Part shown: piece by piece, positions 3,571 to 53,689 of the stretch
Position numbering within the stretch: position 1 is the first letter of the stretch
How the letters are laid out: each line of letters opens with the position of its first letter
From: Dasypus novemcinctus
Taxonomy: Eukaryota; Chordata; Mammalia; Cingulata; Dasypodidae
Reading direction: 5' to 3'
Assembly (NCBI RefSeq): GCF_030445035.2
Contig: NC_080676.1
Span: 10,330,940 to 10,394,939 of the forward strand
DNA: 64,000 bases
The notes under the pieces: generated by a model
What the model was told of the DNA's origin: nothing
The model's database searches: none
The model's input: only the letters and a program-made list of their open reading frames with translations
Position numbers and translations under genes: made by a program

Positions 3571-3836
3571 CTGTAGTCATGGCTGCAGCCCCCTGATGGT
3601 GGCAGAAGAGATTGATCTATGATGCAGTTTGTATGCCATTTGAAATGAAGTAAACTCTAGGAGCACTAGACAGGTGTTGAAAGTTAAATGAGCAAACTTA
3701 ACAGTCTTTTCCTAAAGTTAACTGGTAATTAGCATTGCTGTTTTTGCCTTTGAAGAACTTTATCCAAAGGATATATTCTTGGTTGTTTTCATTATCTTGT
3801 TTTGGTTGATCTGTGCACACATGTGTTTCCTTGTAG
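3571..3836. other. unassigned intronic sequence before exon 4
   Basis: It includes the T-rich polypyrimidine tract of the exon 4 acceptor. Nothing else was recognised. Confidence 0.5.
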
Positions 3837-4021
3837 CATATGATCTTGAAGAACAGAAGAATCTCACCACCTGTCCTGATGGAATGCTTTTTGAACAGAA
3901 GGGCCCAGATTATCGTGCATGTCAGTTTCCTCTTCAGTTACTTGAAGAATGCAGTGGTATGACAGATCCTGATTTTGGCTATACCAAAGGAAAACCTTGT
4001 ATTCTTGTGAAAATGAACAGA
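3837..4021 (+). CDS. ATP1B3: ATP1B3 coding exon (4th of 7 by family structure), Na+/K+-ATPase beta-3
   Basis: This exon encodes part of the extracellular domain of the beta-3 subunit, the single-pass type II membrane glycoprotein that helps the Na+/K+-ATPase alpha subunit fold and reach the plasma membrane. The translation begins [15 protein letters not shown] and ends CILVKMNR, which I recognise as ATP1B3 rather than beta-1 or beta-2. It contains four cysteines (in TTCPDG, RACQFP, EECSGM and KPCILV), the pairs that form the first two beta-subunit disulfides. NLT is an N-glycosylation sequon. The acceptor is a T-rich tract ending TTGTAG and the donor is AGA|GTACGT. The first two bases complete a proline codon (phase 1 entry) and the exon ends in phase 0. 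It is 185 nt long. The reading frame runs open upstream into the intron, but that part does not resemble the protein. Confidence 0.95.
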
Positions 4022-5116
4022 GTACGTACATATTTTACTGCTCTTGCTGCTTTTTAAAATATCCTCTAAGAAACTGGCAGCCTTTTGTAGATTGTTTTGG
4101 TTGAGTCAGCGCCTTCCTTATTGTTATCTTATTTGGGTTTAGCTTGCTTAAAAAGAGAAGCAGTGTTATTTAGTGAGCTTTGAAAAAGTTATTGCATGGT
4201 AAGAAAGATTGATTCATAAATTATTGCTGGATTAGGGAGCTAAAGACCTTACGCTTTTTCCTTTTGGAAAATAGCTACATGCATTTAGGCAAAGATTGAT
4301 GCTTGAAGGGGCTGGGGTTGTGGTTGTACCTGAAGCATGGTTTTGTTCATTTGCAGTGCTCATCTTTGAATCTTGTGTTGTAAAAAAATTTTAATTCAAT
4401 TGAATCTATAGTTTTGGCTTAACATTTTTGGAACTGTTTAGTAGTAATACACAGTTTCATAGTGGTAAGTGTGTGTATATATATGTAAATAGTAGAAATA
4501 CAAATAAAATCCCATTTTAATGAGCTCAGTGGGGTGCTGCAATTGTATCCAAAATACCAGCCTTTTGCTATATTATACAGAAGGGGTGCCTGAGTTGTGT
4601 AGCAATTAGCAAATTAAAAAGCTTATGTTCTGTATGTGTAGGTAATAACAAATTAGAGCTATTATGAAAAAGAAGATGCTTTCCGTGTACAAGGAAATTA
4701 TCTCTAACCGTGTCTTGCTTTCCTATGACTGTTGTGCTACAGGGTGGTATTCTGACAGTTATGCTATTGACTACTTTGAAGAATAAAGACATTCCCAGTC
4801 ACTCACTCAGAAGACAAAGCAATTTCTTAAACAGGTGTAGACCTGTTAAATAGAATTGATCAGTGCCGTGAAAGCCATAAAATGGGATTCTTCCCAAATG
4901 ACATTTTGAAGAACTGTTAGATATGAAATCTCGTGAATCTCTGTTGAGGATATGGAGAAGTTGGGGATGTGACCTAATAACATATGGCTATGTTAGGGAT
5001 GTGACCTAATAGATTTTCATAAAGAACAGTTCATTAAACTGTTTCTGAAACACTTATTAAATGATTTGTTCATAAAAATAATAAAATTTGATAGGTTTTG
5101 TTTGTTTCTTGTTTTT

Positions 5117-5670: not shown

Positions 5671-5721
5671 ATAATTGGATTAAAGCCTGAAGGAAAACCA
5701 AGGATAATGTGTGTTCCCAAG
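5671..5721 (+). CDS. ATP1B3: ATP1B3 coding exon (5th of 7), 17 codons
   Basis: This small in-phase exon of 51 nt encodes IIGLKPEGKPRIMCVPK, matching the ATP1B3 segment that directly follows KMNR. Its single cysteine is the first partner of the third extracellular disulfide; the second partner is in the last exon. The acceptor is TTAACCGTAG and the donor is AAG|GTTAGT. It is too short to show as a free-standing ORF and was placed by protein similarity plus splice sites. Confidence 0.93.
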
Positions 5722-6398
5722 GTTAGTAATATTTTTAAGTCTTCTGTAGTGCCATTGTTAGAAGAATAAAATTTCTACAAACTTTTTTGGGGTAGACTTT
5801 CTCTCTTTGCTAATGATTTTTCTTAAGTGTTTTTCATGTCTTCTTTAATTTCACATGCATTGCCTTTACATATTATCAATTCTAAGAAATACCGTTTTTT
5901 TTGTTTTGTTTTGTTCTGGGGGTTTTTGGATTTGCTTTTTATAGTTTAATACCTCTGAAATTGGGATTGGCCTTATAGTCTTAATAGTGTTTCATAAGAT
6001 TTTTTCTTTCTTAATAGTACATAAATTGGTGTGCTAACCATCAATGGCATCTGAGAGTCAGTGAAATTTGGTACATTTTCCTTGAGTTAGAGGCATTATT
6101 TTTCTCCCCTAATTTTTTTCCAGGGCACTGTGCAGTTTTCATCTCGTAACTTGTCTTGTTTTCTCTCCATGCTGCAAATGCAACTAAGACAAATAAGTAA
6201 ATGATGGGTAAGAGTTTTGAGGAGAAATTAAGTCATAAACTTAATTTTATCATTGTTTTAAATATTAAATTCCAATTCCAGTTGTATGTCAGAAGTATTT
6301 TACTTGAAATGTTATGTCAAAATTACTTTTACAGTTGGCTGCAAAAAATATTGTAATTGCTTTTAGCCACAATTGGATTTATTTGGACAGAACTTCCT

Positions 6399-9832: not shown

Positions 9833-9919
9833 GGTGAAAACGTGGCAGTTTTATCAACTTATCCTCGCAATGGAACTGTAGACTTAAAATATTTTCCATA
9901 TTATGGGAAAAAACTGCAT
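9833..9919 (+). CDS. ATP1B3: ATP1B3 coding exon (6th of 7), 29 codons
   Basis: This 87-nt in-phase exon begins [17 protein letters not shown] and ends in the highly conserved block [12 protein letters not shown], a hallmark of Na,K-ATPase beta subunits. The acceptor is TTTCAATTTTAG and the donor is CAT|GTAAGT. The first nine residues differ clearly from the human sequence I remember, while the second half is nearly identical. The segment PRNGTVD creates an N-glycosylation sequon where human beta-3 has NGM. Confidence 0.93.
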
Positions 9920-10329
9920 GTAAGTATTTAGAAGTTCTTAAAAAGTAATGCATCTTTTAGGAAATTAGCACATCTGTATTAAAATGTATGACACGTTGGG
10001 ATAGATGGACATGCCCTGTATAACGTGTATCATCTTCTGATTTTTAAAAATAAATGATTGATGGCAAATGGAAATCCCACTTCCACAATTCAGATCACAA
10101 AAACCCCAGCAGATAAATTAAAGGTTGATTATTTTTAAAATGCCTTTTTTTTTTCTTTCATTATAAAAGTAGTGTGTGCTTATTTAGAGAATGTAGAAAG
10201 GGACTAAAAAATTTTAGACTCATGATAATGATATTTCATTAAATTAGGGTTATATTGTAGATACTTTAAAAACTTTATTTAGAACTGATTTTAGAATTAA
10301 GAATAAAGTGGCAAAGAATAGTACCAAGA

Positions 10330-12500: not shown

Positions 12501-12660
12501 AAAAAGTAAATGATAGTGAATAGAACATAAAAGATCTGATGAATAAGTTAAAATTTGGGGGCTTTTTGTTTTTCATTTTTTTATAAAATAGACTATCCCT
12601 GAGAGAAAAGTACAAATGAAGTTGCTATAGAATTTGTATTTATTTTCCTTTATTTTCCAG

Positions 12661-12831
12661 GTGGGATATTTACAGCCAGTAGTTGCTGTCCAGGCAGTCT
12701 TTAACTCTAACAGTACCAAGAAAGAGACAACAGTCGAGTGCAAGATTGATGGGTCACCCAACCTTAAAAACCAGGATGATCGCGACAAGTTTTTGGGACG
12801 AATTGTGTTCAAAATCACACTGATTGCATAG
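12661..12831 (+). CDS. ATP1B3: ATP1B3 terminal coding exon with stop codon
   Basis: This exon encodes 56 residues and a TAG stop. It starts [11 protein letters not shown], contains [22 protein letters not shown], and ends FKITLIA. It carries the sixth conserved cysteine (VECKID), which closes the third disulfide with the cysteine of the 17-codon exon, and the immunoglobulin-like C-terminal fold of the beta subunit. NST at residues 17-19 of the exon is a sequon at the position of the human NNT site. The acceptor is TTTATTTTCCAG. With the other three exons the window holds about 164 of an expected roughly 279 residues, with no frameshift or internal stop, so the gene appears intact here. Confidence 0.95.
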
Positions 12832-23391: not shown

Positions 23392-24027
23392 ATTTTTAAA
23401 AAGGCAAGCTTCTAGAGGCCTCCGGCAGCAGTGTGCTGGACTTGGAGGTGAAGTAACTCATCACTAAGAAGTCTCAGTACAAAGTTGTGGTTAGCTCGGT
23501 GAGAAGATGCACTGAGCACCTGCCATGTGCCAAGCACTGCTAGGAGTTGAAGATGCCCTGCAGAGGAAAACAGGTTCCTGCCTTCCTGGAGCTGGGAGTG
23601 CTGATTGTTCTCTTCTTTGAGGGGGTGGGTGATGGCCTCTAGACGGTAACACCGAGCAGAGCTCACTGCTGCTCCTGCACATCCTGCGATGCTCATCAGG
23701 CTGAGCTGGGCAGCACGAGGCAGTTCTGTGGAGCCTCTGTCCAAAAAGGCCTGTTGAACCACATTCAATGGCCTTCAGAAATCCAGAGCCACCCAGAGGA
23801 CTGGAGGCACCTGCCTACACACATGGCGAGGTAACAAGCCTGTGTGACAAGGAGAATTTAAAAATCCATGTTAGTTGGAAAAGGATATTGTGATGTTCAT
23901 AGGTGTATTGGAAGTGTAAGAAACAAGATATTCAGGTTTAAAAGTAGCAGAAAGGATGGGGGATGGTGGAGGAGGGACATCCAGGACTCAGTCCTTCCAC
24001 CAAAACAATCAACAAACAAGAACGTCT
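23392..24027. other. intergenic sequence, mostly unassigned
   Basis: 23505-23590 (TGAGCACCTGCCATGTGCCA) looks like an old interspersed repeat. The rest was not recognised. Confidence 0.4.
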
Positions 24028-24041
24028 AAAACAGCTCATGT

Positions 24042-24537
24042 CTAGAGTGATTACAACTGAAAATGGGAGGATTGCATCCAGCATCCATGTGGAATCTGAG
24101 CCTCCTCTTGACATAAAGGTGCAATGGACACAACCAATCCAATGTCCACATAGAAGAGGTGGCATTGGATTGGGAAAAGTGGACATGGTGGACGATGGGT
24201 ATGGGGAAAGGCAGGAAGAGATGAGAGGTGGAGGCGTCTTTGGGACATGGAGCTGCCCTGGATGGTGCTTCAGAGGCAATCACTGGACACTGTAAATCCT
24301 CACAGGGCCCACTGGATGGAATGGAGGAGAGTATGGGCCATGATGTGAACCATTGTCTATGAGGTGCAGAGGTGCCCAAAGATGTACTTACCAAATCCAA
24401 TGGATGTGTCATGATGATGGGAACGAGTGTTGTTGGGGGGGGGAGAGGGGGGGTGGGGTTGAATGGGACCTCACATATATATTTTCAATGTAATATTATT
24501 ACAAAGTCAATTAAAAATAAATAAATAAATAAATAAA
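24042..24537 (+). mobile_element. 5'-truncated L1 3' UTR
   Basis: Bounded by a perfect 14-bp TSD, AAAACAGCTCATGT (24028-24041 and 24538-24551). It ends in a G-rich tract (24434-24461), ACCTCACATATATATTTTC and an (AAAT)n tail. The body is nearly identical to 35320-35770 in reverse, so both belong to one young subfamily. Confidence 0.88.
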
Positions 24538-24796
24538 TAAAACAGCTCATGTGACACTCCAGAGGCCAGAGCACTGAACGGAATCCAGGAAAGAGTGGGA
24601 GGAAGATGCTGGTAAATTACAGTAAAGAACAGTAAATTGTTTTCTCTGCACAGCAGCTGCTGGCACTCACACCCCACTTTTATGGCAGGCTGCTTTGGGG
24701 TCCAGTCCCTGGGTAGCTGTTGGTGACAGAAAGGTGGATTGATAAAAATCAATCCACTTCTCCAAGAACAGCTAATCACTGATCGTGGCTTTTTTT

Positions 24797-24863
24797 TTTT
24801 TTAAGAAGTTTTATTGAGATATTGTTAAATACAATATGATCTATCCAAAGTGTATATATACTC
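24797..24863 (-). mobile_element. L1 3' UTR fragment
   Basis: AAGTTTTATTGAGATATTG followed by AATACAATATGATCTATCCA, the L1 tail in reverse. It seems to resume at 25268-25300 after the SINE. Confidence 0.6.
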
Positions 24864-25267
24864 AGGGAAGCAGAGTTGGCTCAACTGATAAAGTGTCCGC
24901 CTACCACATGGAAGGTCCAGGGTTCAAACCCAGGGCCTCCTGACCTGTGTGGTGAGAATGGCCCACAAGCAGTGCTGATGCACACAAGGAGTGCAGTGCC
25001 ATGCAGGGGTGTCACCCGCATAGTGGAGCCCCACATGCAAGGAGAGCATCTCACAAGGAGAGTCACCCTGCGCAAAAAAAGCACAGCCTGCCCAGGAGTG
25101 GTGCCACACATGGAGAGCTGATGCAGCAAGATGATGCAACAAAAAGACGCAGATTCCCGGTGCCACTGAGAAGGATGCAAGTGGACACAGAAGAAGGCAC
25201 AGTGAGTGGACACAACAGACAATGGGGGGCAAGGAAAGGGGAGAGAAAAATAAACCTTTAAAAAAAC
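24864..25267 (+). mobile_element. DAS SINE, full length
   Basis: Head GGGAAGCAGAGTTGGCTCAA, box GGGTTCAAACCC and tail AAAAATAAACCTTTAAAAAAA. It splits an L1 3' UTR. Confidence 0.9.
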
Positions 25268-25289
25268 AGTATAATCAATGGCTTTTAGC

Positions 25290-25540
25290 ATAATCATTGT
25301 ATGATTCCATTTATATAAAATATAAATCAGTTTATAAAAATGAAACTAGATTAGTGGTTATGTAGGACTGAGGAAGGATAGAGGGATTGAGAGGTGACTG
25401 CTAAAGGGTGTAGAGTTTTTCTTTTTGGAGTAATAAATTGCTCTAAATTTTTTTGTGGTGATAAATGTACAAAATTTTTATTATACTAAAAGCCATTGAT
25501 ACCCTTTGAATAGACTATGGTAAGTGAATATATCTCAGGA
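25290..25540 (+). mobile_element. L1 3' UTR, forward
   Basis: ATGATTCCATTTATATAAAAT then TAGATTAGTGGTTATG, ATACTAAAAGCCATTGATAC and GTGAATATATCTC, the usual L1 tail order. It lies head to head with the reverse fragment on its left. Confidence 0.6.
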
Positions 25541-33911: not shown

Positions 33912-34236
33912 ACTTTTTTAAGAAACAGTTTTATTGAGGTATATTCACATACCATACAATACCTCCAAATGTACAATGGCTTTTTAGTATAATCACAATG
34001 TTGTGCATTCATCTCCACAAAAAATATTAGAACAATTTCATTACTCCAAAAAACTCCACATCCCTTAGCAGTCACCTCTCAATCTGTCTATCCTTCCCCA
34101 GCCCTAAATAACCACTAATCTAATTCCACCTTTTAAATTGCTTTATATTTACATTTTATATAAATGGAATCATACAAGATGCAGGCCTTAGTGTCTGGTT
34201 TCTTTCACTCAGCATTTTTTTTGTTGCCGGATATTA
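33912..34236 (-). mobile_element. L1 3' UTR, reverse
   Basis: CAGTTTTATTGAGGTATATT, TACAATGGCTTTTTAGTATA and ATAAATGGAATCATACAAG in reverse L1 tail order. Confidence 0.75.
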
Positions 34237-34560
34237 AACTCCTGTAACATTAATATACATTTGTTCATTTTCAAAGAAAAACAGTCTAATATGTGCACTA
34301 TTACCTATATTCATATTTCAGATGAGGTTTCACTGGTGTATGGAACTTAAGCCATATACTTTCCAGATCTAAAGACCACCCTGGAGGGCCTTGGAGTGGC
34401 TATAATTTAGCCTTAAGATCACAGTCTGGAAGTTGACTCCTTGGACTTAAATCCTTTTCTCTGCTGCTTCTAGACTGTTTGACTCTGGGTATAACCTAAC
34501 CTGTGTTTCTCAGGGGCTCGTAAAATCCTAGCTAAATGCTTAGAGTAGTGCCTGGCAGAT

Positions 34561-34604
<44 letters not shown>

Positions 34605-34620
34605 GAAACTGGAACTTCAC

Positions 34621-34626
34621 TTTAAT
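34621..34626 (-). promoter_or_regulatory. ATTAAA poly(A) signal of the transduced segment
   Basis: On the minus strand ATTAAA lies about 19 nt before the long A tail, the usual spacing. Confidence 0.65.
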
Positions 34627-34877
34627 TCTCTTTTAAGTGTAAATTTTGCTATAAAGTAGATGGATGTACCATCTGTACATTAAAGACAGTAAGTTACTGA
34701 ACTACAAAATGACCTTGTTGTGAGGTGATACGACTTCTAAGACAAGGATCCTTGGAAAAAGCATGATAGTGCATATCCAGGACATAATTACAGAGGTTTA
34801 ACCAGAATTCAGCTAAGCAGAACTCCTATATGTAGAATAAAAGGCAATTTACCAAGGAACAAAACCATCACTTATGT

Positions 34878-34982
34878 TTGTGCATATGTATATACACATA
34901 TATACAAATACATATCTACATACATATATTTATATACACATGCATGCATATTTTGATAATGAACATATATATATATATTTAA
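34878..34982. repeat. TA/CA-rich microsatellite inside the transduced segment
   Basis: Imperfect ATATACACATATATACAAAT-type repeats ending in ATATATATATATTT. Confidence 0.8.
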
Positions 34983-36137
34983 ATATCACACTTTGCCAAA
35001 GATAATATTCAGTCCTTTTGAATAGTGTATATTTTTGGAATGGTTATTGTAAGAAACTTGGAAAACAAAATGAAGCAAAAAATTATTTTGTTCTACTGAA
35101 AGCTGATAATTGTTAACATTTTGGTGATGTTCCTTTCCATTTTTTTTCTACATATAATTATTTTGTTTTTACATACTATTATACTATAAGAATAATATTG
35201 TTTCCTGAATTTGATTTTATATGTCATAAACATTTTCTACATTTTTAATCTTTATAAGAATCATTTTTTTTTTAATTTTTTTATTTTTTATTGACTTTGT
35301 AATAATATTACATTAAAAATATATATGTGAGGTCCCATTCAACCCCACCCCCCCCACCCCCCCTCTCCCCCCCCCCCCCCAACAACACTCGTTCCGATCA
35401 TCATGACACATCCATTGGATTTGGTAAGTACATCTTTGGGCACCTCTGCACCTCATATACATTGGTTCACATCATGGCCCATACTCTCCTCTATTCCATC
35501 ATGTAGGCCCTGTGAGGATTTACAATGTCCGGTGATTACCTCTGAAGCACCATCCAGGGCAGCTCCATGTCCCGAAGACGCCTCCACCTCTCATCTCTTC
35601 CTGCCTTTCCCCATACCCTTTGTCCATTATGTCCACTTTTCCCAATCCAATGCCACCTCTTCTATGTGGACACTGGATTGGTTGTGTCCATTGCACCTTT
35701 ATGTCAAGAGGAGGCTCAGATTCCACCTGGATGCTGGATGCAATCCTCCCATTTTCAGTTGTAATCACTCTAGGCTCCATGGTGTGGTGGTTGTCCTTCA
35801 CCTCCATCTTAGCTGAGTGTGGTAAGTCCAATAAATCAGATTGTAGGTGCTGGAGTCTGTTGAGGCTCAGGATCTGGCTATCACATTGTCAGTCCAGAGA
35901 TTCAAATCCCCTAAATATATCTTAAACCCCAACATTAACTGCACCTCCAGCACATTAGCATGAAAGTCTTATGAAGGGAGATCCCATCTGAGTCCAGATT
36001 CATCACACATAAACACCATTTCCAAAGAGGGGCCATCTGCCCTGGTAGTTAACCCCATCGGCCATGACCATAACTCCCATGGGTCTCTTTAGCCCTCAAA
36101 GGAACCAATATCTGGGGGTTGTATGGCAGATAGTTCT

Positions 36138-52680: not shown

Positions 52681-53267
52681 GGGAAGTGGACTTGGCCCAG
52701 TGGTTAGGGCGTCCGTCTACCACATGGGAGGTCCGCGGTTCAAGCCCCGGGCCTCCTTGACCCGTGTGGAGCTGGGCCGTGCGCAGTGCTGATGCGTGCA
52801 AGGAGTGCCCTGCCACACAGGGGTGCCCCCCGAGAAGGGGAACCCCACGTGCAAGGAGTGCACCCCGTAAGGAGAGCTGCCCAGCGTGAAAGAAAGTGCA
52901 GCCTGCCTAAGAATAGCGCCGCACACATGGAGAGCTGACACAGCAAGATGACGCAACAAAAAAAAAACCACACAGATTCCCGTGCCGCTGACAACAAAAG
53001 TGGACAAAGAAGAGCACGCATCACCAAATGCAATGAATGTCTCATGATGATGGAGGAGATTGTTGCTATGGGGGGAGGAGGGGGTTGAGGGGGGTGGGAG
53101 GTATATGGGGACCTCATATTTTTTTAATGTAATATTAAAAAAATAAAGACAAAAAAAATCTGAAAAAAAAAAAAAAAGAAGAGCGCACGCAGTGAACAGA
53201 CACAAAGAACAGACAACCGAGGTGGGAGGGAAGGGGAGAAAAATGAATAATCTTTAAAAAAAAAAAA
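52681..53267 (+). mobile_element. DAS SINE interrupted by an L1 tail
   Basis: Standard head and body to 53020, then an inserted L1 end, then the SINE tail from about 53175. The outer TSD AAGATGAAGTCAA is perfect (52668-52680 and 53268-53280). Confidence 0.92.
53021..53174 (+). mobile_element. very short L1 3' end nested in a SINE
   Basis: 154 bp: TCATGATGATGGAGGAG, a G-rich tract, ATGGGGACCTCATATTTTTTT and an A-rich tail. The host SINE sequence AAAGAAGAGC is duplicated (53006-53015 and 53175-53184), proving insertion into the SINE. Confidence 0.88.
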
Positions 53268-53689
53268 AAGATGAAGTCAAGCTTTTTACCTTGGAGAAGA
53301 GCATGTTGCATTTGAGGAGAAACTAATTCAACGATGGACATATTAAGTTTAAAAGGCCTAGTAGATACCCAAAGCGAGATGTTAAGTAGGAAGCTGAATA
53401 CAAGAGTCCACAGCTCAGAGGAACAGCTGGAACTGGAAGTACAAACTTGGGAGTCATCAACTTTGATATATTTCAAGCCATGTAGCTAGGTAGATGGGGT
53501 CACTGGAGAATAAATATTAAAAAGAGAAGAGGCCCAAGGCGTGAGGCCTGGTGCATAAGAACGTTTAGATACAGGAAAGATGAGGCAGAGCCCACAAAGG
53601 AAACAGCCTCTAATGAAGCCGAAGAGGCATCCTCCACTGGCTCAGCAAGTTCACTCTCTATGCTTGTGCGTGGGCACGGGGACATGTAC

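Follow-up and report, generated by a model that had tools for sequence, protein, structure and literature searches.

L1 3′ transduction is in itself a well-known process, and the described cases share a recognisable set of parts, namely an L1, a short inner tail, a unique flank, a downstream poly(A) signal and a new poly(A) tail, all within one enclosing TSD and traceable to a single source locus (PMC4862182; PMC6425141). Parentless events, in which the transduced DNA of a young insertion maps to a place without an L1, have been documented in dogs and primates. Among the dimorphic L1s of dogs, such parentless transductions are described as usual, with 3 of 27 lying within 50 bp of an L1 in one comparison (PMC12458276), and one of the parentless cases has been resolved to a dimorphic parent L1 with intact reading frames (PMC13103737). 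In primates, source loci without an L1 fragment within 5 kb have been counted for macaque (13), orangutan (9) and chimpanzee (1), and those with truncated L1s nearby amount to 22, 30 and 5, respectively (PMC4862182). A polymorphic donor L1 on human chromosome 3 is likewise reported as absent from the reference (PMC6425141). A different kind of composite is produced by template switching or RNA ligation, which yields chimeras with L1 fused to non-L1 RNA inside one TSD (PMC13174262), as at the locus described below. For the nine-banded armadillo (Dasypus novemcinctus), one of two L1 clades is reported to have members more than 98% alike (PMC1764860) and 506 full-length L1s have been counted (PMC12424770), and no catalogue of 3′ transductions for this animal was found in the accessible parts of the literature searched.

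Here we describe an armadillo insertion of L1 with transduced DNA, which is real and very probably a parentless 3′ transduction whose source site is presumed empty. It has all the parts listed above for L1 3′ transductions, and differs from those cases in that its source locus carries no L1 in this assembly (PMC4862182; PMC6425141). The parentless dog insertions come close to it in being young and in mapping to a place without an L1, but the dog parent is dimorphic, whereas here the genome is xenarthran and the parent allele is absent from the one assembly examined (PMC12458276; PMC13103737). The Class 1 source loci of primates resemble the armadillo source (PMC4862182). The locus supplies two exact places, its source and its target, at which recent movement of L1 in the armadillo can be tested, and it also shows that a reference lacking the parent L1 does not refute a transduction.

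Structure of the insertion

The insertion lies in a window of 64,000 nucleotides (the whole stretch of DNA analysed, from contig NC_080676.1), and its parts are collected in Table 1. As had been noted from the sequence, a perfect 14-bp TSD encloses L1, segment and tail: the 14-mer TGGCAGATAGTTCT is found in the window solely at 34553-34566 and 36124-36137, with 0 copies on the other strand, the two copies match exactly with an extension of 0 bases on either side, and by chance about 5e-6 such 14-mer matches would be expected within ±15 bp of both junctions. On the minus strand, a single insertion runs from 36123 to 34567 between the TSD copies, with single-copy-type DNA between the L1 tail and the outer poly(A). 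On the plus strand the outer run comprises 36 T (34566-34601), the first of which is part of the TSD. The marks of target-primed reverse transcription are a TSD and a poly(A) tail, both at this insertion and in the one relative examined for them, and truncation points that vary among the relatives. Only 4 of the 6 positions of the L1 endonuclease motif TT/AAAA (PMC13174262) are matched by AT/AGAA, the site into which the element went.

The two A-runs, inner and outer, could also have come from two insertions, nested or one after the other, in which an L1 later joined an older retrocopy of 660 bp. However, one 14-bp TSD spans both parts and its 14-mer lies nowhere else in the window, and the L1 is without a TSD of its own, as the AGAACTATCTGCCA that precedes its 5′ end is not repeated after the inner tail (TGATTCTTAT), and we give such a history next to no probability. 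As for the inner A-rich tail that had been read from the sequence, only the 10 A that border the junction resemble a tail, whereas the interrupting T's belong to the encoded L1 3′ end, the last 43 bp of which recur exactly across the genome (see below), and so the idea that these T's prove an aged genomic tail was dropped. The related L1 at 24042 does end after its own tail, as had been noted, and is flanked by direct repeats of 15 bp (24027-24041 and 24538-24552).

Table 1. Parts of the insertion, and a related L1 insertion for comparison (window coordinates).
Feature	Position	Strand	Remarks
TSD, 5′ copy in element orientation	36124..36137	-	minus strand AGAACTATCTGCCA; exact 14-bp match
5′-truncated L1 3′ UTR, 850 bp	35274..36123	-	ends in the encoded 3′ end ...AATAAAAAATAAAAAAATT
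Inner tail, 10 A	35264..35273	-	up to 5 A align to A5 at the source
Transduced DNA, 662 bp	34602..35263	-	copied from C3:127226511-127227174, same assembly; 99.4%
ATTAAA poly(A) signal	34621..34626	-	19 nt before the tail; the source has the same signal
Outer poly(A) tail, 35 A, uninterrupted	34567..34601	-	absent at the source; start ambiguous by one A
TSD, 3′ copy in element orientation	34553..34566	-	exact 14-bp match
Related L1 3′ UTR insertion without transduction (comparison)	24042..24541	+	92.8% over 511 columns; own (AAAT)n tail

The L1 family

The inserted L1 sequence belongs to L1 (LINE-1) with ORF2, and the family is large and young. Its 43-bp 3′ end has 7157 exact occurrences in the genome of 3.61 Gb (3571 + 3586), compared with 0 + 0 for the reversed control. 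As relatives we retrieved the first 12 of the listed places, which all lie on contig C1, and over the retained part these are 93-99% identical to the insertion. Six of the 12 start inside the L1 stretch that is present in the insertion, and five of the remaining six lose mutual similarity at differing points further upstream; the A-run that follows TT at the L1 3′ end is 0-26 long among the 12. When a 450-bp query from the upstream L1 3′ UTR was compared with the genome, 21 of the 40 scored places (out of 1078 candidates) were identical over the full length, own place included, and the L1 family must therefore have been active very recently.

Five long relatives retrieved from among these matches (L037 to L041) are 98.7-99.2% identical to the L1 part of the insertion. 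By means of a 14-residue motif, the ORF2 C-terminus was found upstream in four of them (L037, L039, L040 and L041), with the stop codon 1.95 kb upstream of the L1 part present in the insertion, and the same search of L038 did not find an ORF2 end. The ORF2 end of L037, the one compared, matches residues 1146-1272 of the LINE-1 ORF2p entry 8uw3_A (E 7.4e-46), which we take to be the human protein; scans of the ORF2 piece against Pfam (2 proteins) and NCBIfam (1 protein) gave no match. Between the ORF2 stop and the 3′ end, about 2.8 kb are present in this family (L037:386-3198, and also L039, L040 and L041), and 1950 bp of that 3′ UTR, taken from L037, match L039, L040 and L041 at 98.7-99.5%; such a 3′ UTR is, we assume, very long relative to that of human L1. 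Directly past the end of the L1 in L037 lies part of a second L1 3′ UTR in inverted orientation (L037:3212-3450).

The source locus and the presumed parent

The extra stretch of about 660 bp had been expected to point to its source locus, and this was found on another contig, C3. A 661-bp query of the segment against the 3.61-Gb genome gave 29 matches, consisting of itself, one full-length match (C3:127226511-127227173, 99%) and 27 short ones, all of them at query 269-385, the AT-rich microsatellite of the segment (29 of the 29 candidates were scored, and very common words were skipped by the search). As a whole the segment, which has a single full-length counterpart elsewhere, is not a high-copy repeat, an identity that would have spoken against transduction; within the window and the 80 kb around the source, it has only weak matches besides the source itself. 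Presumably, a part of it looks like the 3′ end of an ancient L1M. When aligned to C3, the segment shows 2 substitutions and one 2-bp indel over 668 ungapped columns (the junction A's account for 5), and of the 3 kb around the insertion only the transduced segment is common to 20 kb of C3. On both sides of the segment the C3 sequence continues unrelated to the insertion and the outer tail is absent there, which identifies C3 as the origin and the window copy as derived; where the insertion has its outer poly(A) tail, the source DNA runs on as CATTTTAATG, the ATTAAA standing 19 nt upstream of the tail position in both copies. The TSD around the segment, its poly(A) tail and a 99.4% match to a different contig contradict the view that it is resident DNA of the window locus. 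Taking 2.2e-9 substitutions per site per year as an assumed mammalian rate, the split of segment and source falls at 0.68 My (95% range 0.08-2.5), and both the low divergence from the source and the pure tail support the young event that had been proposed.

The reading as a 3′ transduction was right in kind and its source is known, but this assembly lacks the fuller L1 that had been predicted to lie immediately upstream of that source: there is none at C3:127227179, and the site is empty with a perfect endonuclease motif, so that the source is not adjacent to any L1. Homology between the window and C3 ends exactly at the inner tail of the L1, and C3 at the junction reads CCATT/AAAAATGATTC, an unduplicated L1 endonuclease site, the minus strand across the junction (GCCACCATTAAAAATGATTC) being without duplication or partial L1. 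The stop of homology at the L1 tail, together with an unduplicated TT/AAAA, is as expected of an empty L1 target; the motif alone is modest evidence, since 21 of the 99 A5+ runs in 20 kb around the source are preceded by TT. Compared with the 80 kb fetched around the source, the L1 part gave four matches at three places, none of which adjoins the segment: two matches fall on one old copy (69-77%), one on a further copy at 70%, and one on a near-identical but shorter copy at a distance of 55 kb. The near-identical copy (C3:127281842-127282422, minus), 55 kb upstream on the same strand, was considered as the parent and rejected, as it has its own TSD (AAGTTAAGTTGGTATC) and is 5′-truncated, starting at base 265 of the 847 bp queried, so that the initial 264 are missing, and it retains 3 bp absent from the insertion. 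From 7157 places in 3.61 Gb, about 0.1 exact family ends are expected per 55 kb (0.05 on one strand), and more when variant ends like that of this neighbour are counted; we take it as a chance neighbour.

The 828-bp right flank of the source has one full-length place in the genome, and its other matches are restricted to an interspersed repeat (query 188-443); accordingly, this comparison, in which 40 of the 4657 candidates were scored, revealed no further contig bearing an occupied copy. With one mismatch allowed, the 29 bp that follow the junction are found at 2 genome places only, source and insertion, and no siblings were seen in this search. As a single assembly was examined, the parent L1 could be supposed to exist in the sequenced animal and to be lost from the assembly, whether collapsed or on the other haplotype, or to have been removed by a rare later deletion. 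Against this, no N occurs in the 80 kb around the source, and neither a leftover duplication nor a piece of L1 is seen at the site, which leaves such a loss very unlikely. Its heterozygous version is a case of the explanation that we prefer.

That explanation, which we consider very probable, is 3′ transduction from an L1 that once stood at the C3 position, on a haplotype other than the one assembled. We infer that a competent, full-length L1 of the young subfamily inserted on the C3 minus strand at about 127227179, at CCATT/AAAAATGATTC, and was formerly present there or still segregates. Its transcript would have run past its own 3′ end (...AATAAA...) and been cleaved about 665 nt downstream, after the flanking ATTAAA, a step for which the signal and the untemplated tail are seen. 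ORF2p would then have copied this read-through RNA into the window site (34553-36137) by target-primed reverse transcription, and the marks left there are a new poly(A) tail, the 14-bp TSD and a 5′ end truncated within the 3′ UTR. The assembly would carry the unoccupied allele of the parent site, the parent L1 being polymorphic in the species or lost by drift. The single TSD around L1, segment and tail argues for transduction, as does the outer tail, which is untemplated and follows a source-encoded ATTAAA; the reading is weakened by a parent L1 not seen in the one assembly, by the lack of visible siblings, and by the position of the junction in an A-run, since two RNAs could also be joined there by template switching.

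Template switching is the main rival. Reverse transcription would start from the poly(A) of a C3 cellular RNA ending at the ATTAAA site and jump at A5 to the poly(A) of an L1 RNA, no L1 ever having been at C3, and this would accord with a junction that lies within an A-run on both partners, with the TTAAAAA common to the L1 end and the source at that point, and with a source without L1. However, it requires a trans RNA as the first template and a jump into L1, and the U6 and mRNA chimeras are described with the foreign RNA 5′ of L1, whereas here the foreign part is 3′ and carries the poly(A) tail (PMC13174262). A match over the full TTAAAAA would leave 5 A where 10 are found, a weak objection because later growth of the run could explain it, and a TT/AAAA exactly at the junction would have to be fortuitous (about one A5+ run in five has it). 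Moreover, 3′ transduction is common: in human colorectal tumours it accounts for 349 of 1531 somatic insertions (PMC13009371). The order of the parts speaks against template switching, as does, weakly, the inner run of 10 A instead of 5, and we regard it as improbable; it keeps this share, and transduction stays short of certainty, on account of the imperfect target motif of the insertion and of possible growth in the inner A-run.

Two further routes were considered. Splicing from a distant L1 was rejected, as it would need a splice acceptor, and no AG precedes the junction; a gene retrocopy with an L1 in its 3′ UTR is less likely, the source being without L1 and colinear with the segment (the search for genes there covered ORF lists of part of the source). 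Returning to transduction, the C3 site might in some living animals still hold a full-length, mobile L1 with one recognisable offspring in the assembly, insertion and parent both segregating, a prospect that we regard as rather doubtful. If true, an active armadillo L1 would be tagged by a single-copy sequence.

Genomic surroundings

The insertion lies between ATP1B3 (plus strand, last match 12655-12819) and TFDP2 (minus strand, C-terminus to 49282), outside the coding exons found, and no effect on either gene is claimed. Four exon matches on the plus strand (3827-4024, 5677-5754, 9836-9922 and 12655-12819) are assigned to ATP1B3 by comparison with a human protein sequence that is presumed correct; the first has PDB and Pfam support, and the second is weak (E 0.003). 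TFDP2 is represented by five exon matches on the minus strand (62628-49282), 91-97% identical to the human protein, whose sequence is likewise presumed correct. What we take, by eye, to be older L1-like remnants are found beside the insertion (33915-34280) and beside the copy at 24042 (24800-25470). At 53023-53175 of the window, a short, old L1 3′ end (75%) lies inside a tRNA-type SINE of about 52690-53270, the SINE being recognised by eye.
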